Assembly (NCBI RefSeq): GCF_036711975.1
Contig: NC_091971.1
Location: 7,013,501-7,077,500, forward strand
From: Onthophagus taurus
Lineage: Eukaryota; Arthropoda; Insecta; Coleoptera; Scarabaeidae
Reading direction: 5' to 3'
Length of the DNA: 64,000 bases
How positions within the stretch are numbered: position 1 is the first letter of the stretch; each line of letters begins with the position of its first letter. Positions 3,001 through 57,005 of this stretch are shown here, in pieces. The translations under genes were made by a program, and so were the position numbers. The notes below the pieces were generated by a model. The model searched no databases, was not told the DNA's origin, and worked only from the letters and a program-made list of their open reading frames with translations.

Positions 3001-5993
3001 GTGTGTACGATTTCCAAGAAGTGATGCTTTTCAATGGTGCTAGTTCAAAAAGAACGGACTAAATGTCATTCGGTTGAAACAATCACTTCTTATCAATACT
3101 CGCGTCCGGTCTTTGTATGAGTTAACTTGATGCTCATTTATTATAATAATAGAAATTATTTCAAGTTTGATGATTTAAATCGTTAATGAAATCATATTGA
3201 TTTTATTTCTAGTGATTAAGTATTAATTTATCTATGAAATTAAATATGAACTGGTCTTTAATTGTTTTTCTGTCTTTTTTTGTCCTAGCGGCTAAATCCC
3301 CCATCCTTCATAATACCTTCTACCTACTTCCTATTTCTATACAATATAAATTTCCCATTTAAATTCCTCCTTCTTCATTAATTTTTAATCATATATAAAT
3401 ATATATTTTAATATATTTGTCATAAACTAATACATATTTTTACAAAAGTTTACCAGTAGTATGTTTATCTAATTAATTATTCAAATTTAACTAAATTTAA
3501 TTGTTAATTAATTTTGTTCATTTAATGATGTTAATCTGCAAATGGCCATGATTTTTGCTTCTGTGCATAACAATTTCTGTTGCACTTGCTCATGATATTG
3601 TTTGTCTCTATAATATTGTGCATGTAAGCACGATATTTTATTTCTGACGAAAATTATTCTTCTGCACATAATGTTTTGCATCTTAGCATGACATCTTATT
3701 TCTGAACAAGATTTTGCTTCTGCACCTGTCCATGATATTGTTTCTACTCATCATATATTGAATATATAATACAGTTGAGCTGTCGGGCTGATTGCGAAGA
3801 TCTTGTGGAAGATTAAAACGATTCTTCTTATAGATAGATAGATTCACAACGGAAAAAAACCCGAATAACTTAATTTTTTGTGGAAAACCGATAATCTTCG
3901 AATATTAATTTCAAAGTGATCGGGGTTTTGAATCTAAAAGCTAACGTGATGATATTCAACCTTTATGAAACCTGTAATAGCAACATTATCTCACGATTAA
4001 CGTAAAATTAATCGTCGATTAGAAGTTGTTTTTGGGTAAAAACATTTTCATCATAGGACTAGAACTGGCATTAGACCTGGAACTAGAAATATTTGGGTTT
4101 AGCCGTGCGTCTCTTGAGACGGCTTCTAGTTCTAGGTCTAGTGTTAGTTCTAGTTTTAGTTCAATAAAAATATACAACAATCTAGCGCTGAATCACAATT
4201 AAAACTAGAACTAATACTATACCTAGAACTAGAATCATCTAGTTTTAATCATCTAGTTATTTCTAGTTTTACACTAGCACTGTTACTAGAACTAACACTA
4301 GACCTAGAATTAGAATCATTCGGGTTTAGCTGTCTTGAGAGACGTGCGGCTAATCCTGAATGATTCTAGTTCTAGGTCTAGTGTTAGTTCTAGTTTTAGT
4401 TCAATAAAAATATACAACAATCTAGCGCTAATAACAATTAAAACTAGAACTAACACTGTACCTAGAACTAGAATCATCTAGTTATTTCTAGTTTTACACT
4501 AGCACTGTTACTAGAACTAACACTAGACCTAGAATTAGAATCATTCGGGTTTAGCTATCTTGAGAGACGTGCGGCTAATCCTGAATGATTCTAGTTCTAG
4601 GTCTAGTGTTAGTTCTAGTTTTAGTTCAATAAAAATATACAACAGTATAGCGCTGAATAACAATTAAAACTAGAACTAACACTAGACCTAGTACTAGAAA
4701 GTTCTAGAAAGAAATTTTTCTAGTTCTAGGTCTAGTGTTAGTTCTAGTTTTAGTTAATTTTTATCTTATATTTAAAAAAATTAACGATCGATTAATGATT
4801 GATTAAAGTTAACATTGTTAATTGACGTTTATAAAAACTTTCCTAACTTAACAGGACGCTATTCGATGATTAGCGATATTAACGTTCGATGATCATTTTA
4901 TGAAATAAACTTTTAAACTTGACGTCAAATTAAGCTTATTAACGTCGAGCTTCATAAAAATTAATTCTAATTAAGGTGAATAATTAATTAATGATAATGA
5001 CACAAAATCGATTTTAAAAAAATGAGAAATAAACTTTTAAAGTTAATTGGGAATCCTATTTAAACTGGAAAAATCTGCATGATTTAGGTTAATTGGTTTA
5101 TATTTATAATATTTAATTACGAATTTTAAGCGCTCTAATAATTTTATCTTCCAAAAATATCATAGTAAATATCCCAAAATCATTAAAAAAATACGCTATC
5201 TCATTTGACATGTCCTAAATTGATTGTATTATCGTAGGTCACACTCCAACGTTTGACACTAAATTCCAAATTATATAGCGATAAAATAATTTGCGTAATT
5301 TTTTTAAATAAAATTACATAACAATATAAAAAAGTCTTAATTATCTCGTTTTCCGTTATTATAACATTTGTGATCTTTGATCGAAAGAGTTCAATAAAAC
5401 ATTTTTTTTTGGTAAATAATATGGTCAAAAAAAGATTTATAATCACTAATTATACGAAGGGAAATAAACGCCTGGCTATTAAAGTACATAAATTAATTTA
5501 ATCGTATCTTATAACACTCCTTCTTTCGGAAAATTATAACTAATTAATTTTTATGCGTCTCCTTATCGAAATCCGGAATTTTATAACGACCACCCGTGAT
5601 GATTCGACCGAAAATAAGCATCTTTTATCGTAGATCTCCCGAAAATGTTTTAACCTTATCCTTAATAGCTCCTACTGTACACCGTTTACAAGCTCAAAAC
5701 TAGTCACTCTTCCTCTTTTTCTTTTGTAGCGCTGATTGAATAAATTCCGATTATATCTTGTTTCAGTCAAGATAAACCACGTACGGTCGGCATCTTTCAG
5801 CGTTTATTCCGAAGCAAAATAATGTTTAGATTAGGAGAATAAGGAGAACAGATGCCCCTGTTATCTGTTGTAATCACTTCAGGAAGTTGGTAATTTTTAA
5901 GATTTTTTTACTAACTTATATTAAAATTTTTTTTATTGTTGTTATTAAATTAATTAAAAAAAAAAATACTTACGTAAATCCGTGGACGTTCAT
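1..5993 (-). CDS. vkg: Collagen alpha-2(IV)/viking-like chain, 5' part (partial)
   Basis: Basement-membrane collagen IV chain, secreted. Exons on the minus strand: 5974-5993, 2919-2961, 771-1061, 454-696, 180-401 and 1-127, continuing past the left edge. All junctions are GT-AG and keep frame. The first two exons (20 and 43 nt) build a 21-residue signal peptide, MNVHGFT then [14 protein letters not shown]. Exon 3 starts with QYFSNDRTG and gives a Tyr/Pro/Asn-rich non-helical leader ending in [10 protein letters not shown], which resembles the 7S start of vertebrate alpha-2(IV). Gly-X-Y repeats follow, with the conserved 7S motif CNGT (also in the neighbouring chain). The alpha-2 assignment rests on the 7S cysteine pattern and on the partner looking alpha-1-like. 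The start was chosen because only this ATG exon joins in phase to the signal-peptide exon. Introns of 3012 and 1857 bp carry repeats. Confidence 0.88.
3540..3745. repeat. Degenerate tandem repeat in vkg intron 1
   Basis: Short phrases such as CTTCTG(T/C)(G)CA, CATGATATTGTTT and TTATTTCTGA(A/C) recur with uneven spacing, as in an old decayed minisatellite. No coding content. Confidence 0.5.
4057..4755. repeat. CTAG-rich foldback elements, tandem cluster (locus 1)
   Basis: At least three hairpin units in tandem with periods of 240 and 224 bp (measured between copies of TTCTAGTTCTAGGTCTAGTG at 4124, 4364 and 4588). Each unit has arms built from CTAGAA/CTAACA/CTAGAC words around a GGGTTTAGC...GTCTTGAGAGACG...GCTAA core, and units are joined by a conserved spacer of about 45 bp containing ATATACAACAATCTAGCGCT. 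It lies in the first intron of the alpha-2(IV) gene. Confidence 0.85.
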
Positions 5994-9300: not shown

Positions 9301-12300
9301 AACAAGTCAAGTAAATAATTTTTTTCTAGGACTAATGTTATTCTTAGCACGCAATCTTCTTTTTTTGACCTCTCAAAAAGAAATAACAATTTTTGTTAAT
9401 AAAATTAAAAACGTTTCTCAAAAATAATCCGTAAGATGATATATGAAGATAATGTACCACCCACCCGTTAACCAATAATTACCACTTTAAGAGTCGATTC
9501 GAATACAAAAAGAGGTATCCCATCCAAAAGAAAGAGTTAACCCAACGTTGAGACCACGTGAAATCGGTAATAATTATGTCGTTACGGAACTTTTTTAATC
9601 CCATTCTCCAATAAAAGATAATTGTTCCAAGTATTAACCCGAGTTATTTCATTGTATGAAATCGATGCGCCTTCCCCGGCAATCAATTAATCAAAAATAC
9701 GTAATGATGCCGCCAAAGAAAAACTTCTCAACATTATTCCTTCGACTTAAATCTCAAAGAATGACCGGCATTTCTTTTTTAGTTATGCTGATTGTTAATT
9801 ATGTGGAAATCTTGTTTTTTTGTAACATAAGTTTCTGTGACAGTATTAAATTTCTGCTTTGTCGGATGAAATGATTTCGTTCACTTAATTAAAAAAAATT
9901 GCATAATAACCCGTTTGGTACAGTGTAGGAGTTTTAACTATTCTAATGCTTCCTATTATATCACACCGGATGTGATAAGCCGGACATCTATCGCATCTTC
10001 CTCCCGTTATCGAAATGGCAATGAGTTTTTTTTTCTAACGCTTAAAACTTTTGTAATACTCTCCGTAAGATAGAAAATGTATTCGTAATAAAACGCTATC
10101 GACACGAGGGTCACTTTAGATAAACTCGTAACGAATTTTATAAAGCTTTAAAGCTACATCAAACTGATTGAGATGTAATCTAAATAACCGCCAATGATTC
10201 ACACTTCTTTGAAAGGAAATGCTGATTATAAAAAAAATATGGGTACTGACAGAATTTTTTTAAAAATGGATTCATCGTCAAAAATAAATAATGCCGTAAA
10301 AATCGGTTTTGTTTATTTACACTATTTAACGAGTTTTATGCACCACAAACCGCATGACGCAATACGATTAAATTGTTAATGATAAAAAAATTTAAAGAAT
10401 CACAAAGATTACCACAGAAAACTATAAAGTCGCAGATTGTTATAAATTTTCCAGTGCGTAGAACGATATTCGTTTCGTGATACTACATACATATAATTTA
10501 ATGGCGGTTATTATTTTAACCCAGGAAGTATGAACACAGAACTTCATGCTGTATCATCGTAAACCTAAGATATATTTAGACGTAGGTGTAAACATTCTTT
10601 AAAAGCCACTTTGGTGTTTATAACTTGTTATGATTCGCTCACAAAATAATCTTTATTTTTTTGTTCAACCCAACTTGCGTGTGAACTAAAACTAGTACTA
10701 ATCTAGATCTCTAACATTGTCACTAGAACTAACACTAGATCTAGAACTATCACTAGAACTAGCGAGTTTAGCCGCACATCTCTCAAGACGGCTAAACCCG
10801 AATGATTCTAGTTCTAGGTATATTGTTAGTTCTAGTAACAGTGCTAGTGTAAAACTAGAAATAACACTAGATCTAGAACTACAAAGTTTCTAGTTTAGCA
10901 AGTTTCAAGCTTAACAACAACTTGTTTAATTTAATTTGGGCTACATCGTATTCCTTACCATCTATAGCAGCAGTTACGACAATTAAATTATTACTGTCAT
11001 TTTGTACTTTTCTGGAAAATAGGTTTTTTTAGATTTATGGAAAATTTAAGGTTGATCAGAATTTCTGATTTACTTAGTTTCAACTGCATTTTATTCCCCA
11101 TCATCTCTAAAGCAGAATATATAGAATAAAATACTTTTAACATTTCCCCTTTCTTAGGAAAACAAATTTTCCATGAATTCTTGGAACTTTCAAGTTCAAC
11201 AGCATTTTTGGTCAAATTAATTTGAATTGCATTTATTGCAGCAAATGTGGAAATGAATTGTTTTTGATTAAATAGTTTTGTTTTTGGAATTTTATCAATT
11301 TTAGATTCAGCAGAATTTTTGGTCAATTTAAATCAAAAATATGTAATCAATATCCACATTATTTCTTGCGTACATACAGACAAATGTTATACTTCCGCGT
11401 TTATTAGTTTCATTCATTGACGTTCCAGTCACGGTTGATAATCTTTAACCTCTATTAATCACATTTAGTTGAAGTTTTTAGCACGCGTCTCAATTGCACA
11501 ATAGAGTTTGTTTATAACCGTTAATAACATTGTAGCCGTTTTAAAGTGTTTTTGAACTTCTCCCAAAAAAAAATCTTAAAATCTTCTCCTCCCCTTAATT
11601 ACACTTCATCGTTGTTTCTTCCGTGAATTTCCACATCAACATCTCTACGGCGTAATCTCAAACCAAAAGCAAAAAGAAAGAAAACAATCTCGGAGAGGAA
11701 GAAAGCGGCCGACAGCTTTTGACGACTTCTCTCCCTCTTGACTTTAGGATTTTCCAAGTATTGCGAAAAGCAACAAGACGGAGACGAACAGTGACCGATC
11801 TTGGTCTTGGACGAGAAGTCCAGACGAGGACAGGTAGATAATTTATGAACCCGTCCAGACTGCTGGTCACATTCCACGCGTCTTGAGCTCTCGACCCTCG
11901 TCGTGAGTCACAGCTGCAATACACACACTAAGGAAAGACTCTCCTCGGTTATATAATCCGTCGACGAGCGCGGAGGAGAAGACGTGCCGCGTTCTCGGTC
12001 AATTCGTCTGTAAAGAAAGAGACTTGTGCGAAATGTTTTGCAGCCCGGGTCTCTTCTTTGGTCGTTATTTGAACCGACTGCGTTCCAAAACGAATTGGTC
12101 AGCGGGCGTTTCAAATTAGTGTTATATGGTGATGACCAAAAGAATGATATAAAAAAAGAATTGATAATAAATAAATATTATAAAAATTAATGAGAATAAT
12201 TTAAGTGAAACTCCATCGTCAAATTTGGTGGTGTGCTAAAAGTAAATTAGTCTTTTGGTATATTCGAGATCGTGCTGGTTTATCTGTTGGAGTTAATTAC

Positions 12301-18300: not shown

Positions 18301-21300
18301 TGCCGAGTGAAATGCGTGGGATATATTGATATATTTGCATAAAACTCGATTATTACAACATGTATAAGACATCTGTTTGCATTGGTATGACCCATTTTTA
18401 GGCGTTGTTAAAACATACAAAGCGAAACAGTTAAGAATCAATATTACAAGAGATTATTTGAAGATTGAAAGTGACAGTTACAAGAGATGTTATCAAGACA
18501 ATACGAATCATTTTTCTAAGAAATTTCTAACACCACACCATCGAAGATCTAATGATGGTCAATGTACGTTCATCACACCGATGTCAACGACACCAATACT
18601 ATTTACACACAGAGCGAGTTGTTCGTAAGCGGTCGTAGGTGCCAAATGAGAAAAGACATCGTGACATAAAGTTATATTTCGTTTCGCAAGTTGGTCGGCG
18701 GAAGGAAGGACAAACATTTGCCAACAGGGCAAGTTCATGGCCTGTTTTCTTCGCTCAATTATTTTTAGTCGGTGACACGATTTAAAGAAGCCAGCATCTT
18801 GCATAATCATCCGCTTGTTCTAAATTGCGTTTGGTTTTAATGTCCGAAGAAAGAACATCTGTTCGCGGCAATGGTTATTTTCGAACTATTACATAACGCA
18901 AAACACATAAACGGACTCAAGCGACAAACATCTGTAATCGTATAGTATGCCTATGAGCGAATTATAACGGCACCCAGTTGTGTATCATCAGTTATTTTTA
19001 AGTAGCCATTGTTTTCGTTGTATTAATATACAGTGTACGCCAAAAAGTCAACAATACTCTCTTTATTTTGGTTTTATTGAATCTAAGTTTCTGAAATTTT
19101 GTTTGTATGAAATCTTGATTTTTCGATCTAAAATATTTTTAAAATGGTTACCACTTGTCCACCAAAAACTTCGTTTCAATGTTAAACAGCGCATATAGTA
19201 GCGCTTCGGCCGCAAACGACCTCGACTTATCTAACAATAAAGAACGTATTACGGATCATTACTGGATTTAAAATATACTGTATTAATTCATTCTAAACAT
19301 TATCTCTTTGCTTCCAGTACTTATTAAATTTATAGGTTCAATAATTAATTAATTTATTATGTTGATCTGAATAGAGAAAAGAAACAATCTTAATTGTCTA
19401 AATAAACGTTTTCTCTTCGAACTTACACCTATAATTACAATTATCGTGGTGAGTGTAAATCGTGCAGTGCGAAGAGAGAGTAAAGCAAAAAGCGGTCTCG
19501 GTAATAGAGATCTATCGTCGAGTTAGACCCCCTAATGACGCCCTAATTAACAGCACCATTGAACGCGGTGGCGTGCGTTCATGCGAGAGATCAGGAAATC
19601 GCTCTTAAAGCGCAACGAAAACAGTTATTACGGAGTAATCGGGCTATTTAGTCCTGAATCTTTAATTCAGCACGATCTTTGATGGTTTGCGCAACTGGGC
19701 ACATGTCTCCGCCGGCAATAAAAAGCTCGATGGATCGTAAACGCGATTTTTTCCGCTCGTGCTATATCCGGAGGTGATGTCACAAGCGATTCTTCGAATC
19801 ACAAAGAGAACCGACATGAAAAATCTTTTAGGACAAGTTAAAGGTTAATGTGTTAATCTGTTGGCTGGAATAGATAACGACAATTGACCGAAGAAGCACT
19901 TTTAAATTAGCCGCTAATAAAAGCCATAGAAAACCATTTCGAAGTTTGTGTATATAAGAAACCCGTCCAAGGGCATAATAAAGATAAGCCATGACGATGA
20001 CCCGCAGACATTTGGACATTGAGAGGTTGTGACATCGCGCGAAATTAACGCACTGTTTTTAAGACACAATGTTATGCGTGAACTTTGACAAAAATAAAAT
20101 TATAATACCACACAACGCGCGTGTAATATAGATAACAAAACTGTAAATAGAATAATTACGTATTAATTAGGAAGTTATAAATAGTTTTGAAAGATATAAA
20201 ATACAATGTTGAGTGTACAAAAAGTTGTGAAAGAATTGTAATAAAAAGAAGAGGAATAAAAAGTTACGTTTTGTACCGTTATAAAAAACGTGACACGCGT
20301 ACGAGACATATTATTAAGTCAAGTACTCAAATGATGCTCAACGCGAAAGCAAGCAGAGATTTTACGGTACTGGTGCATTGTCGAGCTGACCCAAATGCAC
20401 AAACAACCTCTTGTATATACACATACGTACGAAGTGAATCATTATATTGCTTTATTTTATGTAGTTACAGCTGTGGGGGAGAAGACAAGATTTCAACAAT
20501 AAATTTATAATTAGGTTGTTACGATATTTAACAAACTTATAAATACGAAAAGTTTTATATTACATAGATACATTGTTGTTGAACTAAAACTAACACTAAC
20601 ACTTTTACTAGAACTAACTCTAGACCTAGAACTAGAATCATTCGGGTTTATCTGTCTTAAGAGACTTGCGGCTAATCCTGAATGTTTCTACTTCTTGTTT
20701 CTTCTCAATTCTAGTTTTAGTTCAATTTAACAAATTTTTCTTTGAAACTATTAAAAATATTTGCATTGCACGCAAGGTTAAGACCACTTTGTTACATTGT
20801 TGTATGTTGGCGTGAAAATAACCTATAATAATTGTTTAGGTAATAATCATAATATTGAAGTGTCCGTGACATTTTCTTAATAAAATATTTCTAAATATAA
20901 CCCTTTTGAGAACGTTGCGATTAAATATAAATTTTAGTTCAGTAATTATTTCAAAACGGTTTATCTTGGTGAACTTAGATAAACAACCAGTTATAATATT
21001 TGTTTATCATGTGGATGTAGGAACGTTCGCTTTCGCTGAAATTCAAACGAAAATAAATAAGAACAAGGACCTTGTGGTTGAGTAACGACGATAACCAAAC
21101 AATTGGGTCATCCAACTCGGAAATATTGCCGACACATTCAAAATCTTCAGTTAATTTTTTTTCAAAAATTAACCACACAAATTTATAGATCTTTGCAAAA
21201 GAAAACATCAAAACCTAACAGATGTTGTAACTTGTAATGTAACAGATGTTGGCTGGTATAGCGATTAAACATAAAAGAAGTGTCATAAACTTTTTGTATT

Positions 21301-24300: not shown

Positions 24301-27300
24301 GTAAAGGTTGCGAACCTTATTCGGTAATTGGGTCAGTTTTGCATCGGACAATTTACTTGAAAGGTCTGCTGGAAATGGAGCGCGTCATGGAACGCCCCAA
24401 TTTCGTATGCACCGATATAAACAAACGGTCAGTTATGAAACTATCGCATAAATTCGAAATTGACCGTTGAAATTGATTAATACATTTAGATCAAGGTATT
24501 AAATCTTGAACTATTTTTGTACTGAGAATTATAAGAAATATTTCGTCATTATTTGATAATCATCTACAGTAGTCAATCAAAAGAGGAACCGTGTAACTAT
24601 TTCACCTGCCATATCCATATTTGTATTTCAAGATGATTAACCATGTCCATATTTAAACTTTACAACGAATTTACATAGAATCGAATGATGCCTTCGTAAC
24701 GTTGTTCATTGTAGCTTTGTCGGCAGCAAAATCCTCAAAGGGCCAGTAATTTGGTGTAAACGCAACGCTATAAATGGTCAGGAAGAAGAACTATGTTCAC
24801 TCTTCCATTTGTATTATGTCACACGACTTAATTGAGATTTACTGAAGCACTCGGCGAGAGGAACATTCGGTTAAATTTCACTGTATCCCAAATTCGTGCC
24901 TCCATTACATTTTTTCTTCTTTCATTTTGGTTTTATGTAGTACCGTTAATAAAGCCGCTCTCGTGTACCGGGCCCATTTTAATTTAATTTTGTAAGGCCA
25001 TTTTTTACGCCCAGTAGAGTTCATGCTTCTTCCAGGAAAGGCTAATTGAAAAAAATTATTGTGTTCATGTTAACTTAAAATATTCTTTTTGGGCAAAATG
25101 AGTTTTATTTCATTTTAGATACTCAATGAATCGTTGAAATAGCTTCGCTTTTTACATCCCAAAATGATTAACAAATATGAAAAAAAAATAATAAATATTT
25201 CTTTTAAACCGGAAAGATTAAAAAAATCAAACCAGACATAATAATGTAAACGAAAGTATCGAATCGGCGCAGAATTTCGTAAACGAAACCATATGCCCCA
25301 ACAAGACTCTTGCGTAACATCCCAAGATTTCGTACTTTTCATGATGCAACTGGACCACCAGACCAGAATAAAAATATACAAACGAGTTGGCCTTCCACTG
25401 CGGAGACGATAAAAAATGGAACGATCCCATTTACAAGGGAACCGTGTATAATAAATTTATACTCTCCCCCATTGATAGGATAGCAGAGTCCATATTTCGA
25501 GTTATGCCGAGAGTATGGTGATGTGATAAGTAGCCGCTTAAGCGCTTAAAATGACTTGACTTCGTATCTGGGACGAGCAAGATCTTGAATCACGGTCTGG
25601 AAGCTACGTTTCTTCTTTTTATAGAAAGCTGTTCGAGCAGTTGGTGTATTCATGTAATTTTTTTTGCCAATATCTCTTAAGAAGCATAAATCCATTAAAA
25701 GCTTTTTTAAGAAATAAAAATAAACAATGGATTATGTTGACTTAGTGAAAAGCAGAGAGAATTAAGATTATCGAAAAGTTGATTAAATATTGAAAGTGTT
25801 TTTAGTAAAATCCATTAAGCTTAAGTTATGATATAAAGATACAGGATATTGGTTTTACAGATGTTTGTCTTGTAAGATTTTTTTGCTTCTTTAAAGTTCA
25901 TTACCATCTTAAGCTCAAATATTTGCGAAACGACTAAAACTAGAACTAGCCGTAAGACTGCAAAACCCAAATGTTTTTAACATTCTTTTTAACTTTCTAG
26001 TTCTAGGTCTAGTGTTAGTTCTAGTTTTACACTAGAGCTGTTACTAGAACTAACACCTCACTAGAACTAACACCCAGAATCATTCGGGTTTAGCCGTCTT
26101 GAGAGGACGTACGGCTAAACCCGAATGATTCTGGGTGTTAGTTCTAGTTTTACAGTAGAGCTGTTACTAGAACTAATAGTATACCTAGAACTAGAATCAT
26201 TCGGGTTTAGCCGTCTTGAAAGACGTGCGGCTAAACCCGAAACTTACTAGGTCTAGTGTTAGTTCTAGTTTTAGTTCAATACAAATTTACAATAACATGG
26301 TGTTGATTAACAACAAGAACTAACACTAACACTGTCACTAGAACTAGATTAGACCAAGAACTAGAAACATTCGGGTTTAACCGTCTTAAGCGACACACGG
26401 CTAACCCCAAATGTTTCTAGTTCTATATCTAGTGTTAAGTTACATGGATTTAATAGAAAAAAGTAAATAATAAAATTTGTTAATTATTATTTACATCCAT
26501 TTGTTTTTGACTTAAAAAAATGACACATTTTGTCAAATCATATAATAATTGGGAATACCCAAAAAATACATTTCCCAGTAAGATAGTAATTCGAAGATTA
26601 CCACCAAATTTTACACTCGATTCTTTTATTAAATATGTATCGCCGTTACCTAAACATAATTATCTGCGGTTTGTTGAAAGTAATGGAAATGGAGTAAATT
26701 CTTTTTCGAGAGTTTATATAAATTTTACGAATTGGAACGAATTACTTTTGTTTAAACAAAAATATGATAATTATATATTTCTGGATGATGGTGGGATAGA
26801 ACATCCGGCTGTGGTGGAATTTGCTCCATTCCAAGGAATTCCGAAAAATTCGAGAAAGAAAGATAATAAAAGCGGTACCATACAGTTTGATGAATATTAT
26901 AAAGACTTCCTAAGAAAGAGGAACATAAAAACGTCAAGCACGGAGAAATTTGAATTCGAGATTCAAAAACGTGAAAACACCGCTGCGATAACGCCACTTT
27001 TAAAATTTATAAACGAAAAAAAGGGGGAAAAGAAACAACATTGCGATGATAAAAATTACATTCGAACTAAAACCGTAGATAATTGTATGGTGTTTGTAAA
27101 TAGCAGGGTGAGACGAAACCAAAAATTTAAGTACAGGAGACCGAAGTATCTCGGCTCTTTGTATACAAACTCCTAAATTGGAACCAGATGTTCTTTTTTA
27201 TAAAGTTTTCGGATGTTATTTTTTTAGCAACGTATAAATTTCAAAGGAAACTACCGAAAATCCAGATGCACAAATAAACTTTTAGATACATAAAATTTCC

Positions 27301-30300
27301 GATATCATTAGTGGGAAATATTCGTGACGATCTTAACAGAAACGTCACGTTTAGCCCCACAAAATCCCGTTGTTGCCCTTAGGGTATAATAGCGATGTAA
27401 TGGATGATCTACACGCAATCGAAGAGAAGATTTATCCCCTATTAAATTCGTGATATGTGGGTGTCATTATGCAACTACAAATAACAAGTAAAGTAGTACG
27501 AAACTATAAAGATCAATGAAATTTTATATTATATTTTATTAATTTTTAATAAAAATGTTTTGTATCACATGTTTAGCGTCTCTCAAGACATTTGAAACAG
27601 CTACCCAATAAAAAACTAAAAGGTTAATTTTAATTCTTCCTTTCAGTCTTGCAAAGGATGTGCTTACGCACACAAATGCAATTGTACTGGCATTCAAGGC
27701 AAAAAAGGTGATGATGGTATACCAGGAAATATCGGTATTCCTGGTGAATATGGTGATATAGGAGAAGACGGCCCTCCAGGTCCAAAGGGAGAAAAAGGAG
27801 CCGAAGGAGAACGGGGTAACGTCGGTGACAAAGGATTTAGAGTCAGTATTTAATTACAAATTAATTCTCTTTTAACGTGATTACACTTTCAAGGGCGGTG
27901 ATGGCGAGAAAGGAATGCCCGGTATGCCAGGTTTATCTGTAAGTATTTTATATTCTTATTTAACTCAATTTGTTTACATAAATTTTTTTAGGGTGTCACT
28001 GGTGCAAGAGGTTACAGAGGCCCAGTGGGTTTGGATGGTTGCAACGGTACAGATGGTAATCCGGGTGTTAAAGGTATACCTGGTGATCACGGTGCTAGAG
28101 GTGATGCTGGAGGTGAAGGTGCCACGGGTGCGAGAGGTGATCCAGGAGAAGGTGGTGGTAATTCGATCGGTATCAAAGGTGTCGCCGGTATAAGTGGAAT
28201 TGATGGAATTTCTGGAAACCCAGGACCACCAGGACAAGCGGGATCTTTTGGCCCTCAAGGACCACCCGGACAACAAGTACACAAAAAGAAATTCTGTTAA
28301 AACATGATTCTAATTAAATTCGTTTTAGGGTGAACCCGGTTATGATGGACATCGAGGTCCAACTGGAGACCCAGGATTACCAAGTACTGGTCACAGAGGT
28401 GCTAAAGGACAACCTGGAGATGTAGGCGAAACTGGACCACCTGGACGAGTGCCCTGGAACTTTACCGAAAATCAAACGAACATCGAAAGCGAAAGAGGAG
28501 AGACGGGCGAACCTGGAAGTCTTGGATTCGAAGGTGAAATAGGAAGAAAAGGTGAAATGGGAGATCGTGGACCGATAGGGTTGAGGGGATTCGAAGGTGA
28601 TAGAGGTTATAAAGGTGACCCTGGAGCGGACGGATCGCGAGGTAAACAAGGAAGACTTGGACCTGAAGGTCCTCCTGGTGAAAAAGGAGATAAAGGAGCC
28701 CCAGGTTATGCTGGGGAATATGGTGAAGATGGTTTTACTGGTCTTCCTGGTGAAGCAGGACGAAAAGGATCACCTGGCGCTCAAGGTCCGCCCGGCATAA
28801 AGGGAGTATGGGATCCTACACAGAATTTAGGAACTAAAGGTAGTAGAGGACGACAAGGACCTGATGGTTTTAGGGGTCTTAAGGGTTAGTAGATCAACTT
28901 AATAAATTAACGTAATATTAATAATTTTATTTTTCTATTTTTTAGGTTCAGCTGGTTTACCTGGTAAAAGAGGAATGCCTGGTCCTGTTGGATCCCCAGG
29001 TCAACCAGGTCTTCCCGGGCTTCCTGGATTACAAGGTAAAAAAGGTCTCCAAATAAAAGGAGAACGTGGTGATGACGGTTTCCCTGGTCATGATGGAAGA
29101 CGAGGTGAACACGGTCTGCCGGGATTATGGGGCAACAAGGGAAAACCTGGTGAACCCGGCTACGATGTAACTGGCCCTAGAGGAGATAGTGGTATCCCTG
29201 GATTAAATGGATTTGCTGGTCCACCTGGAGACATGGGAGATGAGGGTGAGAGAGGGCCAAAAGGTTATCCTGGTACCGGAGTTCCTAAAGTGGGACCAAT
29301 GGGAGATCAAGGACGTCCAGGATATCCCGGGGACGCAGGTGATCCAGGACGACCAGGTTATGATGGATTAAAAGGTTTAAAAGGACGACGCGGTGATGAT
29401 TGTGGATACTGTATGCCGGGATTAGATGGCTTAAAAGGAGAAAGGGGTGATGATGGATGGGATGGCGAAATGGGGGGAATAGGTTTCCCTGGACTTACTG
29501 GAGCTAGAGGAGCAAAAGGAAACAAAGGGCGACCCGGTGTTGCGGGACCTAAAGGACAACCAGGCACGCCTGGCGGTCCTGGTATACAAGGAGCTCAAGG
29601 GCCTAAGGGTGTAACCGGAAAAATAATTATTCCTCAGAGTCAGGTGGAGGTCGGAGATAAAGGTTACAAAGGATTTGCAGGAAGAGTTGGCCCGGAAGGT
29701 GATCGTGGATTCCCTGGAGCAATAGGTTTCACAGGTTTAAAAGGTTTTAAAGGAGAAGTTGGTGTATACGGTGAAATCGGATATCCTGGAAAAGATGGTA
29801 TAGATGGACTACCCGGTAGGATTGGTCAAAAAGGAGAACCAACACTAATAGCTAAAGAATATGTTCGTGGAGATAGAGGCTTTCCTGGAGAAGAGTATGT
29901 TTTTTAATATTGTATAGTTTGTTCCTTATTCTTAGTTACAAATTATTTTTGTAGTGCTCAAAAAGGAGAACGTGGTGATGCTGGACCAAAAGGTGAACCT
30001 GGATACATATCAACCTTAATTTCAGCTTTAAGAGGTAGTAAGGGGTATAAAGGACCACCTGGAGATGAAGGTTATTATTACATTTTTAAGCAGATTTTTA
30101 AATGTTATTTAATAAAATAAATATTATTTTCAGGCTTACCTGGTTTAAGAGGTATTAAAGGTATTAAAGGAGATATGGGATACACTGGTCTTCCAGGTGC
30201 ACCTGGCAAAACCGGAGAAGTTATTCAAGGTCCCGAAGGTATTAAAGGTTTCCCAGGCTTAACTGGAGATCAAGGGTTACCTGGCCGCCCTGGAGAACCA

Positions 30301-33300
30301 GGTACTCCAGGACCAAAAGGCGAGTCTGGTAGATTTGGAGAGAAAGGTAACAGAGGAGATCATGGACTCAACATACTTAACGGGAAGATTGGAATCATGG
30401 GACCTGAAGGTGCCAAAGGCTTACCAGGTGATTTTGGATTGGATGGCTTTAAAGGACGATCCGGTATAGATGGTGTCAAAGGTTACAAGGGTGCTAAAGG
30501 TGCACCAGGTCAAATTGGACTACCCGGGCAACGTGGTAGGAAAGGTCACAGGGGAATAATGATTCCCGGATCGCAAGGGCCACAAGGCAGGCCAGGATAT
30601 AGGGGTTATCCCGGAATGTATGGAGAACTTGGTGAACGTGGTGACGAAGGTGCCGTTGGTCCCGATGGTGTAAACGGTCTTAAGGGAGAACCAGGACCTT
30701 TCGGCGATAGAGGTCCAAGTGGAGATATAGGATTACCTGGATTTAATGGAAGACCTGGACCAGCTGGTATTGATGGTTGGGACGGCCCCTTAGGTGAAAA
30801 AGGAGACATGGGATATCCAGGTTACCCGGGAGAACCAGGCCCTGCGGGACTTACCGGATTGAATGGACCAAAAGGAATTATGGGAGACATAGGATTTCCA
30901 GGCAACGATGGGTTACCTGGTTTACCGGGCATTCCTGGCCTACGTGGAGATGAAGGCTGGCCTGGAAGACGGGGACCAAAAGGAGAACCTTCATTTAGTG
31001 GACCCAAAGGAGAACAAGGTGATCATGGACCCACTGGTGCACCTGGAGCTGATGGTTATGATGGATGGGATGGTGCTAAAGGAGAACCGGGAATTCCCGG
31101 TGATAGTATCTTTGGTGAACGTGGTTTAGCCGGTGAAGAAGGAAACGATGGAACAATGGGGAAACTGGGTTTTCCTGGAATGGTAGGAGATCGTGGTGAT
31201 ATTGGTTTTCCCGGACCAATTGGACAACGTGGTGAACCAGGTTTTGATGGAGCTGTAGGAATCTTAGGAAAAAATGGCATTCCTGGTCAAAAAGGAGAGC
31301 AAGGAGATTATGGATTTGCAGGAATAAAGGGTATTAAAGGTGAAAGAGGAATGGATGGTGATCCGGGATCTATGGGACTTCCCGGATTAATGGGTGACAA
31401 AGGTTACTCTGGTTTTTCTGGCCGACCTGGTGAGAAGGGTGCAAAAGGCAACGTTGGATATCCAGGATTTTCCAGCCACGGAACCGGGGAAAGAGGTGAT
31501 TTCGGCGAACATGGAATGTTCGGATTGGGAGGGGTAAAAGGTGACGTGGGCGATGAAGGCTATCCAGGTTTACCAGGACTTAAAGGAATTAGAGGAGATA
31601 AAGGTTTTGAGGGATTACCGGGACCGGCAGGACTCCAGGGAGCGAAAGGAATGATAGGAGATATTGGTTTTACTGGTGCACCAGGTTTCCCAGGACAACA
31701 TCCAGAACGAGGTGATATGGGAAAGGAAGGTTTACCGGGAAGAGAGGGCTTTCCGGGAGTAAATGGGCAGAAAGGAGCTCCTGGTGAATACGGCGAAGAA
31801 GGTTTAAAAGGCGAACGGGGTCCAACTGGCGAAATTCGAATTGGAATGAGAGGTGAACCTGGTGATACTGGACTACCAGGTACTCCTGGATTTCCTGGAA
31901 GAGCGGGAGAACTCGGGGCTATTGGAATTCAAGGAGCACCAGGACGGAAAGGTTTAATGGGAGATCCTGGATATGGAGGAAACAGTTCTAAAGGTGCAAA
32001 GGGTGATGTCGGTTTCCCTGGTAAGTAAAAATCTATATGGATAAACAGTATTGTTTAAACATTTAATTTTTAATTTAGGTTTAATTGGTGCCGCTGGCGA
32101 TAAAGGTTTTATTGGTGACATTGGCCTTTCTGGTAGCATTGGAATAATTGGACAGAAAGGTTTTCAAGGCGAACCAGGAGATCAAGGTATTCCAGGTTTT
32201 CAAGGAAGAACAGGATATATCGGCGATAAGGGAATGATGGGAGAATACGGAAGAGATGGTAATCCTGGATTACCAGGACTGAGTGGTGACGCTGGATATG
32301 CTGGATTACCCGGATTATATGGATCCAAAGGAAAACGTGGTCCTCCCGGCTTCAAAGGCATTCGAGGTGATGGTGGATTACCAGGCCGAAACGGAATAGC
32401 AGGTCTTGAAGGTCCACGCGGCATGCGCGGTGACGACGGTTTCCCAGGACAAGAAGGTCGTGTCGGGTTACCTGGAGCAACTGGTTTACCAGGAACTCCA
32501 GCACCTTCTCCCCCAGGACCAAAAAGTCGAGGTTTTTATTTTGCTAGACATTCTCAATCAGAAAGAATACCGGTTTGTCCAAGAGATACTGTGAAGTTAT
32601 GGGACGGATACTCATTATTGTACATACTTGCTAACGGTAAAAGCCACGGACAAGATTTGGGGTCACCCGGAAGTTGTTTGAGGCGATTTAACACTATGCC
32701 TTATTTATTCTGTAACTTGCAAAACGTTTGCGATTATGCACAAGCAAACGATTACAGTTATTGGTTATCTACAACTGAGCCAATGCCGGCAATGATGACA
32801 CCTATACCAGCTGTTGAAATGAATAGATACATATCAAGGTTGGTGAATTTTTAATAATTATTCCAAATTGTTTTTAATATATTTGATTTTTTGTAGATGT
32901 TCAGTTTGCGAAGCTCCAACTAAAGTTTTAGCACTCCACAGTCAAAGTTTAAATGTCCCTACTTGTCCTAATGGATGGGATGAAATCTGGCGAGGGTGGA
33001 GTTTCTTCATGGTACTCAAATTAACTCGTTACATAAACTTATCAATTAATTTAATAATTTTTGTAGCATGTAGATGCTGGTGCTGAAGGATCAGGACAAT
33101 CATTAATGTCGCCTGGTTCGTGTTTAGAAGAGTTTAGGCCAAAACCATTTATAGAATGTCAAGGTCACGGGCGTTGCAACTACTACACGACAGTTGTCTC
33201 TTATTGGTTGAGCATTATCGACGATTATGACATGTTCAAAAAACCAAAACCACAAACTATTAAAGAAGGAATGGATTTAACATCGCATATTAGTAGATGT

Positions 33301-35445: not shown

Positions 35446-38180
35446 ATGGCCCCTCGAAAACGGTGTAGATCTGTCAAAGCGATTAATAAAGATTATAACA
35501 AATTAAGTTTAAATGACGTGTTATGCCCGATATGTAGAAACATTTTGTTGGAACCGGTATCACTTCCGTGTAACCACGGCTTTTGCTTGCCTTGTTTTGA
35601 AGGTACAGTAGCGAATTCAAACCTTACCTGTCCACTATGTAGGATAAGATTCGCCTCTTGGCATCGAATAGCCACTAAAGAGAACAAAATTGTCGACGAG
35701 AGTCTTTGGCTGGCCATCAAGAAACTCTTTCCCCATTTGATACAAAATCGAATCAATGGAGTTGACAATAACATACCACAAGGTAAGTAGCCCATTTTTC
35801 GTTAATTTCAGTACTTAAAAACGTAATTATTTTAGAAAACTTGATTAAATTAGCTGCCCCGGGAGATATTAGAAAGGAATATGAAGAAGAGAAACGAAAA
35901 GATTTATTAGAAATAGAGAAACAAAGAATCGCTGAAGTGAAAGCTAGCGAGGAACTTATAAACAAAATTTGTAAAGAGGAAGCTTTTGCAAACAATTTAA
36001 AACAAGAAACGTTACGTAAAGACGAAAAAATAGCCAGGCAGCTAAGCGAACAGTTGAATTCAAAACTTTCTCAATTAAATGTATCGAAAAAAATTAAACC
36101 AATAGAGAAATTTTTGGTTAAATCACCCACGAAAAAAGACATCATCAATTCAAGTAGTAATAAAAAGCACGTTACTAAAGTTTTATGCCAAGATAAGACT
36201 CATCCTAAATACGTAATAAGCACCAAACATAGTCACGAAGATAAACATAATAAAAACGGTTTAATTAACGTTCAAAAAGATATCGTTTTACCTTCTAATT
36301 ATTATTTTCAACCAATTGAAATCATTAAAACATCTTCACATATTTCACCTATTAGAATACCAGTTAAACAACAAAGAACAAATGTGATCAAAATAGTGTA
36401 AGTTAAAATAAAAGAAATAATTTTTAAAAATAAATAAAATAATAATTTAAGTGTAAAAGATTTTACAGCCGGTATTAATCAAGTAAATTAACACTAGAAC
36501 TAACATTATCTAGGTCTAATGTAGTACTAAAAACTGTAAGTGTAAAATTAGAATTACACTAGACCTAGAATTAGGAAGTTTTGGGTTTAGCTGTGTGTCT
36601 ATTACAGCGCTAGTGTAAAACTAACACTAGAAGTAGAAAGCTGAAAATGAGAAATCTTTCAATTCTACAATTTCGGGTTTGCACAGTTGTCTGGAGCAAA
36701 GATGGGTTATAAACCTTGATGATAAATTATATTTAAGTTAATTTTGAATGTTTTTTGTATGAAACATTTTCTCCCATCACATTTAGTTTTTGAGATATAC
36801 ATTTATTTTAATGCTGAAAATGAGTAATCTTGCAATTCTAAGATTTCAGGATTGCTTATTTGTATGTATCAAAGATGGGTTATAATCGGTTATAACAAAT
36901 TATGTTTTAGTTCATTTAGAATGTTTTTTATATGAAACATTTTCTCCCATCATGTTTAGTTTTTGAGATATGGCCGAAAATGAGAAATCTTTTAATACTA
37001 CTATTTCGGGTTTGCGCAATTGTCTGGGACAATGATGGGTTATAAACCTTGATGATAAATTATGTTTAAGTTAATTTTCAATGTTTTTTGCATGAAACAT
37101 TTTCTCCCATCACATTTACTTTTTGAGATAAAAATTAATTTTAATACTGAAAATGAGAAATCTTTCAATTCTACAATTTCGGGTTTTTGCAGTTGTTTGG
37201 ATCAAAGATGGGTTATAATCGTTAATGATAAATTATATTTAAGTTAATGTTGAATGTTTTTTGTATGAAACATTTTCTCCCATCACATTTACTTTTTAAG
37301 ATATACATTTATTTTAATGCAGAAAATGAGTAATTTTGCAATTCTAAGATTTTAGGTTGGGCGTCTGAGGACGCTCGGCTAATCCCGAAACTTTCTAGTT
37401 CTAGGTCTAGTGTTAATTCTAGTTTTAATTCTTATTCAAAGTTAGATTGTTGTAATTTTTGTTGAGCAAGCACTACAACTAACACTAGACCTAGAACTAG
37501 AAACATTCAGGTTTAGCTGTGCGTCTCTAAAGACGGCTAAACCCGAATGTTTCTAGTTTTAGGTCTAATGTTAGTTCTTTTGACAATACTAGTATTAGTT
37601 CTAGTTGTTAATCAAGGCTAGGTTATTGCAAAATTTTATTGAATTGAATTATTGTTTTAGAGCTCCTAAATTATCAACATCATTTACATCAAATGTAATC
37701 TCAGCTTTTGCAAAAGTTTGTGATTCACCATCAACAATAATAGAATGTCAAAGTTTGAGTAAAGAAAAAGAAGAGCAAATCAAAAAACCTTCAGGGAAAA
37801 AACGAAAATTACGTAGTGAAAGTTCATTAGAACAAGATCAAAATGTTGTACAAAAAAATGATTTGTCACCATCGAAAATAACCTGTCAAAGAAAAAGTAT
37901 AAGATTGTTGGGTATGCAACCGGAATTGGAAATTCTTCCGTTTCGGGGTTTTGAAAGTACAATGAAAAATTCCAGCGAAACGAATTTGGCCAAAAATAAC
38001 GCTGCCAGGATGGAACAAGAACGTAAAGATTTAGAATTTGCGAAACAATTACAAGAGGAATTGGATCAAATGAGATGGTATAGTACAAGGAGTACTATTC
38101 CGAGGAATAGCGCTTATTGTAAGAAACAAAGGCAAATTAAATTGGATGAAATTATAAAATGTAGAAGTAAGGTTAAGTAA
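35446..38180 (+). CDS. RNF168-type RING E3 ubiquitin ligase
   Basis: Three exons (35446-35782, 35836-36397, 37661-38180) join in frame to 472 residues. The RING finger is complete C3HC4: C27, C30, C42, H44, C47, C50, C62, C65, with LPCNHGFCLPC typical of RNF168/169. Residues 113-135 (ENLIKLAAPGDIRKEYEEE) match the LR/UMI region that follows the RING in RNF168. A Glu/Lys-rich coiled coil leads to a first ubiquitin-binding MIU-like helix at about 173-186 (DEKIARQLSEQL) and a second at 422-435 (LEFAKQLQEELDQ). Vertebrate RNF168 builds Lys63- and H2A-linked ubiquitin at DNA double-strand breaks and is read by repair factors; the same nuclear role is inferred here. It is shorter than human RNF168 (571). 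Intron 2 (36398-37660) contains a foldback element split by a tandem repeat. Confidence 0.88.
36490..37610. repeat. CTAG-rich foldback element split by a tandem array (locus 5)
   Basis: The left half (36490-36635) carries the usual arm and GGGTTTAGCTGTG core side. The matching right half (GCTCGGCTAATCCCGAAAC and arm) begins only at about 37360, after the tandem array. A further complete hairpin follows at about 37470-37575. All lies in intron 2 of the RNF168-like gene. Confidence 0.8.
36641..37365. repeat. 173-bp satellite-like tandem repeat, about 4.2 copies
   Basis: Units start with C(T/C)GAAAATGAG at 36641, 36814, 36974, 37147 and, partial, 37320 (CAGAAAATGAG). Periods are 173, 160, 173 and 173 bp; the 160-bp unit lacks about 13 bp (ACATTTATTTTA-like) at its end. 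Two monomer types alternate (AATCTTTCAATTCTACAATT against AATCTTGCAATTCTAAGATT). Confidence 0.9.
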
Positions 38181-39477: not shown

Positions 39478-39812
39478 CGCTAGAACTAACACTAAAACTA
39501 GAAACATTCGGGTTTAGACGTCTTTAAAGACGTTCGGCTAAACTTGAACCATTCTAGGTCTAGTTTTAGTTCTAGTGATAGTGTTAGATCACTAGAATCG
39601 TTCGAGTTTAGCCGTCTTAAAAGACGTTCGGCTAAACCCATACGATTCTAGGTCTAGTATTAGTTCTGGTAATAGTGTTAGTTTTAGTGATGGTGCTAGT
39701 GTTAGCTCCAGTCTTGGTGCTAGTGTTAGATCACTAGAACTAGAATCGTTCGCGTTTAGTCGTCTTAAAAGACGTTTGGCTAAACCCGAACGATTCTAGT
39801 TCTAAAGTTTCT
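39478..39812. repeat. CTAG-rich foldback elements, tandem (locus 6)
   Basis: Three hairpins with shortened cores (GTTTAG(A/C)CGTCTT and AAGACGTTCGGCTAAAC), at about 39505-39545, 39600-39650 and 39745-39800. The arms include the variant words GTGATAGTGTTAG. It lies between the RNF168-like and MIC26/27 genes. Confidence 0.85.
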
Positions 39813-40251
39813 AATTATGTATATCAATACCAATGCTGTGATGTTGGTTGCATACTTGCAATGATGACGTCGGGTACGATAATTAATTAACACACTATAG
39901 AAAGCAAGAGTGGCAATCAACAGACTTGTGCGAGTAAAAATGACAGCAAAAAAAAGATAAAATAACAGCATACAGATGAGAGTAAATCCAATGAAGGAAG
40001 AATGTTTAGCCTATTTTAGAAAAAGGATTTTTTTTTCATTAAACATTTATATATTTATAATAATTAAATAAAAACAAATCAATTTGTTTACATTAAGAAT
40101 ACCAATTCAATCATCAAAAAAAATCATTCACTAAAATCAAAATACTACAATTTTTAAGCAACTATTTATTCCCGTTTAATTATTAGTCCATTTAGTAAAT
40201 TATCCTGCAGTCTTTGCTTCCGTTTGTTTTACCTAAAATTAGAAATAAAAA

Positions 40252-51176: not shown

Positions 51177-51286
51177 GTAAGTGTCTATAAAAAGTTTTTA
51201 ATTTTTTGAATTTTTTTTTTGTAATGGTATATTTTGGCAGTTAAATTGTTTGATATAAGTACGAAGGTTTTCATGGCTGGTGTTAA

Positions 51287-51756
51287 TTGAACTAAAAGTA
51301 AAACAGAAACTACAGCCAACACTACATTAGAGTACTATCATTAGAACTAACACTAGACATAGAACTAGAAACGTTCGGGTTTGGCCGTCTTGAGAGACGT
51401 GCGACTAAACCCGAATGATTCTACTTCTAAGTATAGTGTTAGTTCTAGTAACAGTGCTAGTGTAAAACTAGAATTAACACTAGATCTAGAAATAGAAATA
51501 TTTAGGTGTAGCTGTGCGACTTCAAGACGCACGGCACTAAACCCGAAACTTTCTAGTTCTAGGTCTAGTTTTAGTTCAATAAAACTATACAACAATCTGG
51601 GGCTGAATAACAATTAGAACCAACACTAGAACTGTCATTAGAACCAACATTAGACCTAAAACTAAAAATATTCGGGTTTAGCCAAACGTCTCTCAAGACG
51701 GCTAAACCGAAATATTTCTAGTGGTAGTTCTAGTATTAATTCTAGTTTTGGTTCAA
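51287..51756. repeat. CTAG-rich foldback elements, tandem (locus 7)
   Basis: Starts TTGAACTAAAAG and ends with GGTTCAA. Three hairpin cores (about 51373-51415, 51510-51550 and 51670-51712), with the conserved spacer (AATAAAACTATACAACAATC) between the second and third. It lies just 3' of the last recognised exon of the gene at 48770. Confidence 0.85.
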
Positions 51757-54700
51757 TTTGATAATTTCGCTTTGGGTTGCTAATGTGTTTTGAATTGCAT
51801 TTTAGGTGTGATTTCTTTATTAACACCCACTAAAAAAACTGATGACATAATTCTTGAAATAATTTATAAATAACGTTTAAACATTAAAAGCACGCAGAGA
51901 GTGAGAGAAAGCGATTTTCTGATCTTTCGTAAGTATCGGCCCATTTTTGGCTAACTAAAGAGGTTACCGAGCCAAGGTGCAAGGCCGGTGCTTCGAGTTC
52001 TACTCGACGACTTCGTTTCGCGATCGCGAGAAATCTGTTTTTACTGCTATTTATCGAATAAGTTACCAATTTAACCGTTAACCTTGGTTTTGTCATTTTG
52101 AAAACCGTGTTTGCGGGAGAAGTTTTGGGGAAGGATCGATTTCATTCCTTGAATATTTATTTCAAATTTGACCGTGAAGTAGTGTTGTATAATTCAATCG
52201 AAAATGTTAAATTTTTCGTAGTGAAATGAAATGAAACATTGGGGATCGTTAACCTCCGTGACAAGTTTTTTTTTCTGTTTAGACGAAAATATTTCCTTAT
52301 TACCGAAGGTTATTATTATAAATTAACCTTGGACTTTTATGATTTCTACATACAAGTTGATTGTGTAAATGAACCGTATGGTAACAGGAATATTGATTGA
52401 AATATCGAGACCTTAATTTAACCCGATATCTAAATGGCTACTTAATAATTAATGTTATTGATGATTTGTTAACTTGGAGTTTTTTTACTTAATTAATCCT
52501 CCTAAACGAGCTCTTAAAATGTTGGTTAACATTTTGAAAAGCCACAAGAACACTGCGGTGTAATTACCTATCCAATTTTTGATCGTTTAGATTTATTACT
52601 ATACCGTAATTTCTAACTCGATATATTTCCCAACATGTAATAACACTTATCGTGTTTAATTGGTCTACGATGCTTGGTTGACTTACACAAATGTTTCGGA
52701 TAAGAGAATAAGAGTTATACCAGAGGGAATTCTCGTAAACCTGGCGCAGTAATTTTCTTGAGCTTCATCGACGTGATCATTACGACTTATGCAGCTTAAT
52801 TCGCTAATTTATTCATGTTTGAAGTTGTTAACTTATTCATGTGAAGGCTGGTGGAAACTGGTGGTGTCACGCTGGAGAAACTTTTTGATGTCGAGGCCGA
52901 TTACAAAGGAAATTATTTTAATAAAAATAAGTTTTATTAAAAAAAAGAACTATTAAAATTTACTTTCTCTGATTATCTTCGTTTACACCTAAAATTTCAA
53001 ATTCAACTCAGGCTTTTATTCCCTAACAACTTTAACGTTTGTTTATTCTCAGTTTACGTTAGTACCAGGTTTCTTCTTAATGAGGTGAGTGCGAAAACTG
53101 TGTTGAAAAGACGTTTAAATACGTTTCCGCCTTAAAATATATTGAGGCATACTAAAAGGGCACATATTTTATCTTATGGCCTATATTTCCATTAAAAAGC
53201 TGTGACCCACCCTTTTCCGTAATTAGATTGAAGTTCCGTAAACGGCAGATGTGCGTTGCTGGTAAGAACATCGCTCAACTAATTTGAAAGTAATTGACAC
53301 TTGGTTGCACAGAGAAAGTCTTTTGTGCTGTGAGTTAATTGAGTTTTTTCGTTTTATTCTCTCTTTTAAAGTTGGAATGAAATCACATCCAATTTTATAA
53401 CGTTGCGAAATAAACTTTGATAAAATATGGATGTCGACAACCGACCCTCAACATTCTAAAAATTAACAAATCTTTAAAATTGGATCTCACCTTGACTACT
53501 TCCGATGACGGCGCCGTTTAAAATTTAAATCTCACTCCTATGACCCTGAGAATCTCTTTCAGTAAAATGTTTCATTAAGTTATAAAGTGTACCATGACGG
53601 TTACCATAACGAGTTTTATATCCCATATCGTATAAGTGGCGAAACGAAGATTGAAAACTTTCTTTTTTCTCCAATCTTCTATTGACTCTAAACACCTGCT
53701 ATCAAAATGTAATCTAATCGATAATGTATATTGGTGGTTATATAACAGCTTGTAATTATCACGTCTGTAAAGTTGGTACTAAATTTTTTTTTAGTTTTTA
53801 TTGTATTCTTTGATGCTGAATATTTTGGTATGGTATGTTCCATAAAGGTTTTTCAAGGTATTGATCTTCAGTTTTCAGGTTAGTTCATCCAAAACAAATT
53901 TCAAGACTTTTTACCAGGAATAAACTCGTTCACTACCTTACCAAGGTTGCGTGGATAAAATGAGGAAAGATTGGTACCAACTTGTTGACTAGTTCAGGAG
54001 CCCTAGTATCAGCAAGCCACAGTAATATTAGGCGCTGCATCCTAAATTGAGCCTTGGTTTCCTTCTTGGCTTCGCAACTATGTACTTTAACAGAGAGCAA
54101 CAGATAGTTAATCTATTGCCCGATCCTCAACCTGAAGAACCAGTTTTAAAGTGCTGGAAACTTGCTTTCAGCCTCCTCCGTTGGTTGAATTACTATCATT
54201 CTGGTGTGAGCACTACATAGCCTGGGGTACACGAACGAGGATGTGGAGGCAGGATTTGTGGATGCGTCTTGAGTAGAGAAGGAGATGAGCTTCGTTTCTG
54301 AACATTGACTTTTAGCCCTGCTGCTTTTGATGCATGTTGCAGTTTTCTCAACTTTATCTCTATATCACAAAACTTTGTGAAAGTAAGCAAATGTCGTTTG
54401 CAAACTCAAGATTGTCAAGTCTATCTTGCATAAAATGTTCTTCTTCCTTCTGTAACGTTTCTCATCGCTCAATCCAATACCAGGAGGAACAGTATGTGTG
54501 ACATAATACACCTTTGTCTCATCCCAGAATTTACGTAGACAAACACATTGATATATTAGATTAAAATTTCAAGTATTAAGAACAGCAATTGATGAAATGT
54601 TTTTCATTCCATTAGTTGCTGCAGTGTATGCATTTGAATGCAAAACTCACGTTTGTGTTTCTTAGAATCTCGGAATTAATGAATCAGTTGTATCCGCTTT

Positions 54701-56861: not shown

Positions 56862-57005
56862 AACTAAAACTAACGCAATACTTAGAACTAGAATCATTCG
56901 GGTTTAGCCGTCTTGGGAAACGTGCGGCTAAATCCGAATGTTTCTAGTTTTAGGTCTAGTGACAGTTCTAATGATAGTACTGGTGTTAATTCTAGTTTTA
57001 ATTTA
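56862..57005. repeat. CTAG-rich foldback element (locus 8), single unit
   Basis: A single hairpin: ATTCGGGTTTAGCCGTCTTG, then GGAAACGTGCGGCTAAATCC, with degraded arms. The left end TAACTAAAACTAAC and right end TTCTAGTTTTAATTT match the family termini. Confidence 0.8.

Follow-up and report, generated by a model that had tools for sequence, protein, structure and literature searches.

Penelope-like retrotransposons (PLEs) of the Penelope/Poseidon group offer the closest comparison for the repeat family described here. The available portions of the reports on Pen of the rotifer Adineta vaga (PMC3846280) and PAc of the lizard Anolis (PMC11167929) describe elements with a reverse transcriptase (RT) ORF and an optional tail of ~30-40 bp, whose inserts are flanked by inverted end repeats and have junction palindromes and target-site duplications (TSDs) of variable length. 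The same portions place the start of reverse transcription at an internal, AC-rich stem loop of the RNA, and the lizard element is reported to cleave and extend both strands in vitro (PMC11167929). The elements of Onthophagus taurus resemble these PLEs in their ORF, tail, inverted ends, junction palindromes and variable TSDs. They differ from them in that most of the palindromes have no ORF; the palindromes also yield pattern matches by the thousand, are arranged in 121-175-bp arrays and are carried within DNA elements.

Two further systems share part of this design. Tetris/DAIBAM of Drosophila virilis, according to the accessible part of PMC4079207, is also a foldback with internal tandem repeats that occur in longer arrays as well, but it is a DNA transposon with long terminal inverted repeats (TIRs) and 8-10-bp TSDs, whereas the beetle repeat appears to be a retrotransposon-derived palindrome. 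Helentron-borne repeats of the Pacific oyster are likewise satellite-like arrays that a non-autonomous mobile element has spread; their carrier is a different one, and the listing of PMC7492417, a partial source, mentions no palindromic unit. No PLE-derived foldback or satellite was described in the literature searched, at the level of titles and abstract openings, and a literature search by sequence string returned no match.

Here, a preliminary description of CTAG-rich foldbacks is followed up in a 64-kb stretch of the O. taurus genome (the window) and across the assembly; all the sequence evidence comes from this one genome. With a probability of roughly 0.85, we consider the foldbacks to be non-autonomous PLE derivatives; the palindrome was probably primed from two strands, and the family would go back to one founder that was later multiplied. 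The preliminary description had recognized no named family; the parent class was in fact already known, but the foldback offshoot does look new.

Hairpin Clusters in the Window and in the Genome

Nine CTAG-rich hairpin clusters were distinguished in the window by our own grouping, one of which, at 36.5 kb, is degenerate (Table 1), so that the earlier count of eight loci was right to within one. The window contains 186 CTAG tetranucleotides, concentrated at 4.0-5.0, 10.5-11, 20.5, 26, 36.5-38, 39.5, 51-52 and 56.5 kb; inverted pairs of at least 20 nt with a spacing of up to 600 bp number 132 across the window, and the core CGGGTTTAGCCG has 34 occurrences when up to two mismatches are allowed. 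In the 290.8-Mb genome, the pattern CGGGTTTAGCCGTN5-20CGGCTAAACCCG has 1310 + 1292 exact strand matches (2,602, palindromic cores being scored on both strands, i.e., twice), compared with 0 + 0 for a reversed-pattern control, and the hairpin family is therefore not a product of chance. The preliminary description had allowed that the loci might be random CTAG-rich simple sequence; the whole-genome count points instead to a dispersed, high-copy family with defined ends.

Table 1. Positions of hairpin copies and associated features in the window.
Position	Strand	Feature	Remark
4058..4755		Hairpin cluster with 225-bp tandem duplication	
10682..10902		Hairpin copy	
20579..20724		Single hairpin, both sides tail-less PLE ends (TTGAACTAAAAC...GTTTTAGTTCAA)	No TSD beyond chance
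25933..26434		Reported locus with three hairpins of head-to-head PLE 3' ends, and partial arms; outer ends degenerate	No target duplication beyond chance
26060..26148		Perfect 38-nt arms (26060-26097, 26111-26148), loop 13 nt; internal deletion common to both arms	
36490..36635		Degenerate copy	Left out of the PLE-locus comparison
37370..37640		Hairpin pair	
39480..39808		Hairpins, 94-bp tandem arrangement	
51249..51255		Candidate TSD TTTGATA, left copy	P 0.063, loose random control
51256..51288	-	PLE tail TAAGTACGAAGG...GGTGTTA, optional 3' extension	
51256..51756		Most complete window copy: PLE tail left, CTAG hairpins, tail-less PLE end GGTTCAA right	
51757..51763		Candidate TSD TTTGATA, right copy	
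56863..57000		Single hairpin	

Several other features were recorded along the way. A UPF3-family ORF (26520-27176) directly adjoins the reported hairpin locus, and a type IV collagen gene occupies 28329-32854 (Pfam 3.4e-40; C4 domain 1.6e-37). Tandem repeats of ~173 and ~179 bp, at 36640-37346 and 42517-43207, are unrelated to the hairpins, while a recurring GTGTTAATTAATTATCGTACCCGACGTCATCATTGCAAGTATGCAACC-type repeat stands beside or within CTAG arrays at 39830-39900 of the window, in L036 and in the interior of L053. At six of the ten contig ends that were read (L061, L062, L065, L067, L068 and L069), (TTGGG)n was found, two others consisting of N; this is an unusual telomere motif for an insect, known from a beetle, a damselfly, a bee and a lacewing according to the available part of PMC12564400.

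Unit Structure and a Probable Founder Palindrome

Twenty stretches were taken around the best DNA matches, a choice biased toward arrays. At least one spacing of 127 bp is present in 19 of them and a spacing of 121 bp in the remaining one (L015); further array spacings are 171-177 and 225 bp, and the largest array comprises 34 units (L009). Another 20 stretches, hand-picked from the exact core matches listed on contig C1, proved to be mosaics of one to several hairpins with few recurring spacers between them.

Most units share one loop. When each unit is oriented to its better fit, TCTTGAGAGACGTG is exact in 156 of 375 units and has up to three substitutions in 343 of the 375, these being spread over 49 of the 50 unit-bearing sources; the 375 include one false unit (window 29139, in the collagen gene), which was dropped from the arm-pair counts given below. 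Judged by eye, this loop is without four PLE bases on one arm. A single loop asymmetry common to most units speaks for one founder palindrome copied as a unit, and we infer that such a founder was multiplied, rather than that thousands of head-to-head insertions arose independently. A symmetric core, CGGGTTTAGCCGTGCGTCTTCAGACGCACGGCTAAACCCG, is nearer to the PLE sequence and rarer, with 50 matches when one mismatch is allowed.

Relationship of the Arms to a PLE 3' End

The flank at 51200-51290 of the window, which contains the optional PLE tail, was matched at all 40 scored places, its own included, and CTAG words follow this flank in 11 other fetched places and in L012. Reverse-strand ORFs in L077 and L082 encode what we take to be Penelope proteins. 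When the L077 fragment was used as a protein query, all 150 candidates scored, out of 936, gave a match, and 12 PLE loci were fetched from this search, one of which (L083) is the query's own place (L077). With the query's own place excluded, 10 of 11 loci detected solely by protein have a CTAG 3' end after the ORF on the same strand; L094 is without such an end. Among five further PLE copies, a near-identical group with equal or nearly equal protein scores, four carry the CTAG 3' end downstream, and the fifth, L098, is cut by another repeat and lacks it.

An RT domain is present in the 622-aa ORF of L088, which matches Pfam RVT_1 (E 3.7e-9) and was the only ORF tested in full length; a PDB sequence search gave one weak match, to a maturase RT (E 0.0018). 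Pfam searches returned no match to a GIY-YIG endonuclease. The motif GVYRLSCSCSKYYVGQTGR marks a putative C-terminal GIY-YIG endonuclease.

Each of the eight window loci matches 11 of the 12 PLE loci, and the best four alignments have 70-94% identity. In 12 of 17 PLE loci, the 20-nt core GACGCACGGCTAAACCCGAA, which is not made of CTAG words, is best matched directly next to those words (16-19 matching positions); the other five reach 12-14, and 20 hairpin-free control windows of 3.3 kb reach at most 13. A 22-nt A-type core, with 15-18 matches in those 12 loci, separates them less well because the control maximum reaches 15. The tail pattern, with up to three mismatches, has 683 + 607 genome matches and none in the control. 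Of the 44 PLE copies listed on contigs C1 and C2, examined with the 97 tails listed there out of 1,290, 11 have an exact tail on the same strand 300-1000 bp downstream and none has one on the opposite strand, compared with a mean of 0.015 and a maximum of 1 for random tail positions. Up to 4.5 kb upstream of these copies, an opposite-strand tail was found in 5 of 44 and a same-strand tail in 2 of 44.

On these comparisons, the CTAG foldback arm is recognizable as the 3' end of the PLE (the CTAG-word region plus the ACGCACGGCtAAACCCG core), and the foldback itself reads as two such 3' ends, outward-facing and head to head.

Ends and Target-Site Duplications

PLE copies terminate either at ...TTAGTTYAA(T) or ~32 bp further on, at ...CGGCCGTGAAAGCCTTCGTACTTATA. 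The 3' end has the tail in L084, L086, L087, L089, L093 and L099 and is without it in L085, L088, L090, L091, L095, L096 and L097. Reversed, the tail-less end is TTGAACTAAAACTA, the sequence that had been presented as a terminal inverted repeat. It is indeed a defined end; its standing as the TIR of a DNA transposon was rejected, since it is the tail-less PLE 3' terminus, placed at the outer ends, and no TSD of fixed length accompanies it in the eight window loci. A Helitron, considered on account of a CTAG end after a hairpin, was discarded because the PLE terminus and tail account for the outer ends.

Several PLE copies and short solo copies bear PLE 3' ends at both outer ends, with or without the ~32-bp tail. 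Of the two outward-facing 3' ends in L085, L087 and L091, one has a tail and the other has none; the tailed end is the 5' one in L085 and L091 and the 3' one in L087. Exact duplications of 13, 10 and 12 bp accompany L085, L087 and L091, respectively. The solo insert L076, 243-245 bp long and without a PLE ORF, has the same two-end design and an exact 12-bp duplication; the duplication of L082 matches at 11 of 12 positions. From L096, a duplication was predicted before the inverted tail at C3:453630, before the sequence there had been seen, and AAATTTATTT was found, which corresponds to 10 consecutive bases and to 11 of the 13 predicted letters; this duplication (L100/L096) is AT-rich and offset by one or two bases from the ends. 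Inverted end repeats together with a variable TSD of 10-13 bp are accordingly present in the PLE copies L085, L087, L091 and L100/L096. L101, an insert of 270 bp that has a tail at each end, showed no clear duplication, and its arms, like those of L076, have apparently unrelated truncation points when inspected by eye.

The check for TSDs suggested in the preliminary description had a divided outcome: exact duplications of 10-13 bp at five inserts, and no match with P < 0.05 at any of the eight window loci. The lowest window values were 0.063 (51256) and 0.077 (10682), the latter candidate not lying at the expected ends. The 7-bp duplication TTTGATA of the copy at 51256-51756 is weak by itself and supporting rather than decisive, given that its P value comes from a loose random control; this copy (L071) was scored as lacking a TSD because its end GGTTCAA falls outside the search pattern. 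The 20 tail rows represent 19 distinct sites, since L077 and L083 coincide; an exact TSD was found at only four of these sites, and at none of the other 15 under the criteria of the test.

Insertion Mechanism

Two-strand priming at a staggered cut is the most likely origin of the palindromes in this genome. Both strands of a staggered PLE cut would prime reverse transcription, each cDNA would start at the 3' end of the PLE RNA, and the two truncated cDNAs would join head to head into a palindrome. One such palindrome may have founded the family and have been copied by unequal exchange and by a carrier DNA element, and PLE proteins acting in trans perhaps copied it as well. Under this PLE-derivative reading, the hairpin has no host function.

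Head-to-head palindromes might also arise by self-priming on one template, without priming from both target strands. This course, with an antisense template, has been proposed for the rotifer Penelope from palindromes at inverted junctions, as the accessible part of PMC3846280 sets out, and it is a serious contender here, if the less probable one. However, the 10-13-bp duplications at inserts with one tailed and one tail-less end fit two separate starts, and the activity of the lizard PLE on both strands in vitro, as far as the available part of PMC11167929 describes it, favors two-strand priming.

The start site itself may be variable. L095, L096, L097 and L099 are 98.4-98.8% identical over 427-429 nt upstream, yet between their CTAG regions there are differences of 0, 12 or 24 bp, and the kind of CTAG word varies too; slippage at the start site would fit these differences. 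A further, rather improbable reading is that the palindrome exploits the PLE machinery as a SINE-like parasite: both of its ends would be the RNA 3' start, transcripts from either strand could serve as templates, and the RT would slip in six-base words, giving a new word count at each insertion. If so, arrays and carriers would be template reservoirs for a retroelement with two 'starts'.

A Carrier DNA Element

Part of the family travels by other means. A recurrent hairpin flank ending in ...GAAATTCCCGGTATA was matched at all 40 scored places, out of 1190 first-look candidates, and in 11 of 12 fetched copies this end, the 3' end of the carrier, adjoins hairpin units; in L058 it adjoins only a fragment of one. 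The other recurrent flank starts with TATACAGTGAATTTCAC, and the two flanks bound a single element, whose inverted termini are imperfect, the terminus TATACMGKGAATTTCAYWTAA having 483 + 504 genome matches with one mismatch allowed and none in the control. Both carrier ends, with hairpins inside, were found in L020, L051, L052, L053, L059 and L060, and TA lies beside the CMGKGAATTTCA-type terminus at 11 of the 12 ends of six carrier copies (by eye). Part of the family is therefore cargo of a TA-target DNA element, which, with its terminus beside a TA target, is a candidate non-autonomous element of the Tc1/mariner type. The carrier 5' end has no match in the window, and its 3' end has one partial match there (in the slice 8001-16200), with no CTAG hairpin in the printed flanks. 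Some arrays, in L011, L016 and L021, are bordered by a pogo-like terminus (TACAGTAAAACCTCGATATAACGG type), which may belong to another class of carrier.

These observations bear on whether the foldbacks might be an independent DNA foldback or MITE family with TIRs of its own (TTGAACTAAAACTA), which PLE copies merely acquired. The occurrence of hairpins within a TA-target element that has a terminus of its own, and the frequency of tandem arrays, would agree with such a family. We nevertheless regard it as highly improbable: the carrier terminus differs in sequence from TTGAACTAAAACTA, which forms the 3' end in 10 of the 11 PLE loci detected independently and also in four of the five copies of another group, and the TTGAAC ends of the eight window loci show no consistent duplication.

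Arm Symmetry and the Question of Hairpin RNA

The identical 38-bp arms singled out in the preliminary description were confirmed and are 100% complementary; perfect arms of at least 38 nt occur in 3 of 375 units. Recent insertion, one of two explanations offered for them, is not borne out, as the unit at 26103 has 85.9% identity to the unit consensus compared with a sample median of 93.2%. Gene conversion, the other, fares better. The arm form of this unit, with up to two substitutions, was found only in the window among the 52 loci L009-L060 and the window itself, which, together with the deletion in both arms, fits arm-to-arm copying, and the unit makes a good case of one arm copied onto the other.

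Across the family, arm conversion is partly supported. In 145 dereplicated units from 45 sources, 5475 arm-pair cells are unchanged, 1141 are broken on one side, 83 are broken on both, and 78 are changed on both sides but paired; gaps are one-sided in 301 cases and two-sided in 27. When whole right arms were swapped 500 times, two-sided paired cells had a mean of 46 and a maximum of 70, versus 78 observed, and two-sided gaps a mean of 5.7 and a maximum of 24, versus 27. Arm identity is 0.817 within units and 0.801 between them (P 0.023). The excess of symmetric changes is modest, and relatedness among units could inflate the figure.

The preliminary description also raised the production of long hairpin RNA. 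Selection on the hairpins as a source of hairpin RNA, small RNA or ribozymes is the least probable of the readings considered here. The predicted hairpins are strong, and many miRNA models match below the gathering score, as long hairpins give; these matches, all under gathering, were read as generic long hairpins, and the Rfam search of the window produced no match at gathering. The 1141 one-sided breaks stand against 78 compensating cells, and G-T mismatches (321) are about as frequent as A-C mismatches (292), so that no selection for RNA structure is seen. A hammerhead in the pLTR has been described for PLEs; here, 14 loci, including seven PLE loci, gave 35 matches at E ≤ 0.1 and no hammerhead among them, with the 5' ends lying mostly outside these loci. 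An origin as a retrozyme or hammerhead element was set aside on this result.

Implications

Read as PLE derivatives, apparently anonymous foldbacks become a legible record of PLE insertion, in which the outer ends would be RNA 3' ends and the tail would be optional at each. The poorly known insertion mechanism of PLEs would thereby be made testable from genomes. The O. taurus family would also be a case in which the end of a retrotransposon has turned into a satellite-like unit, carried by DNA elements.
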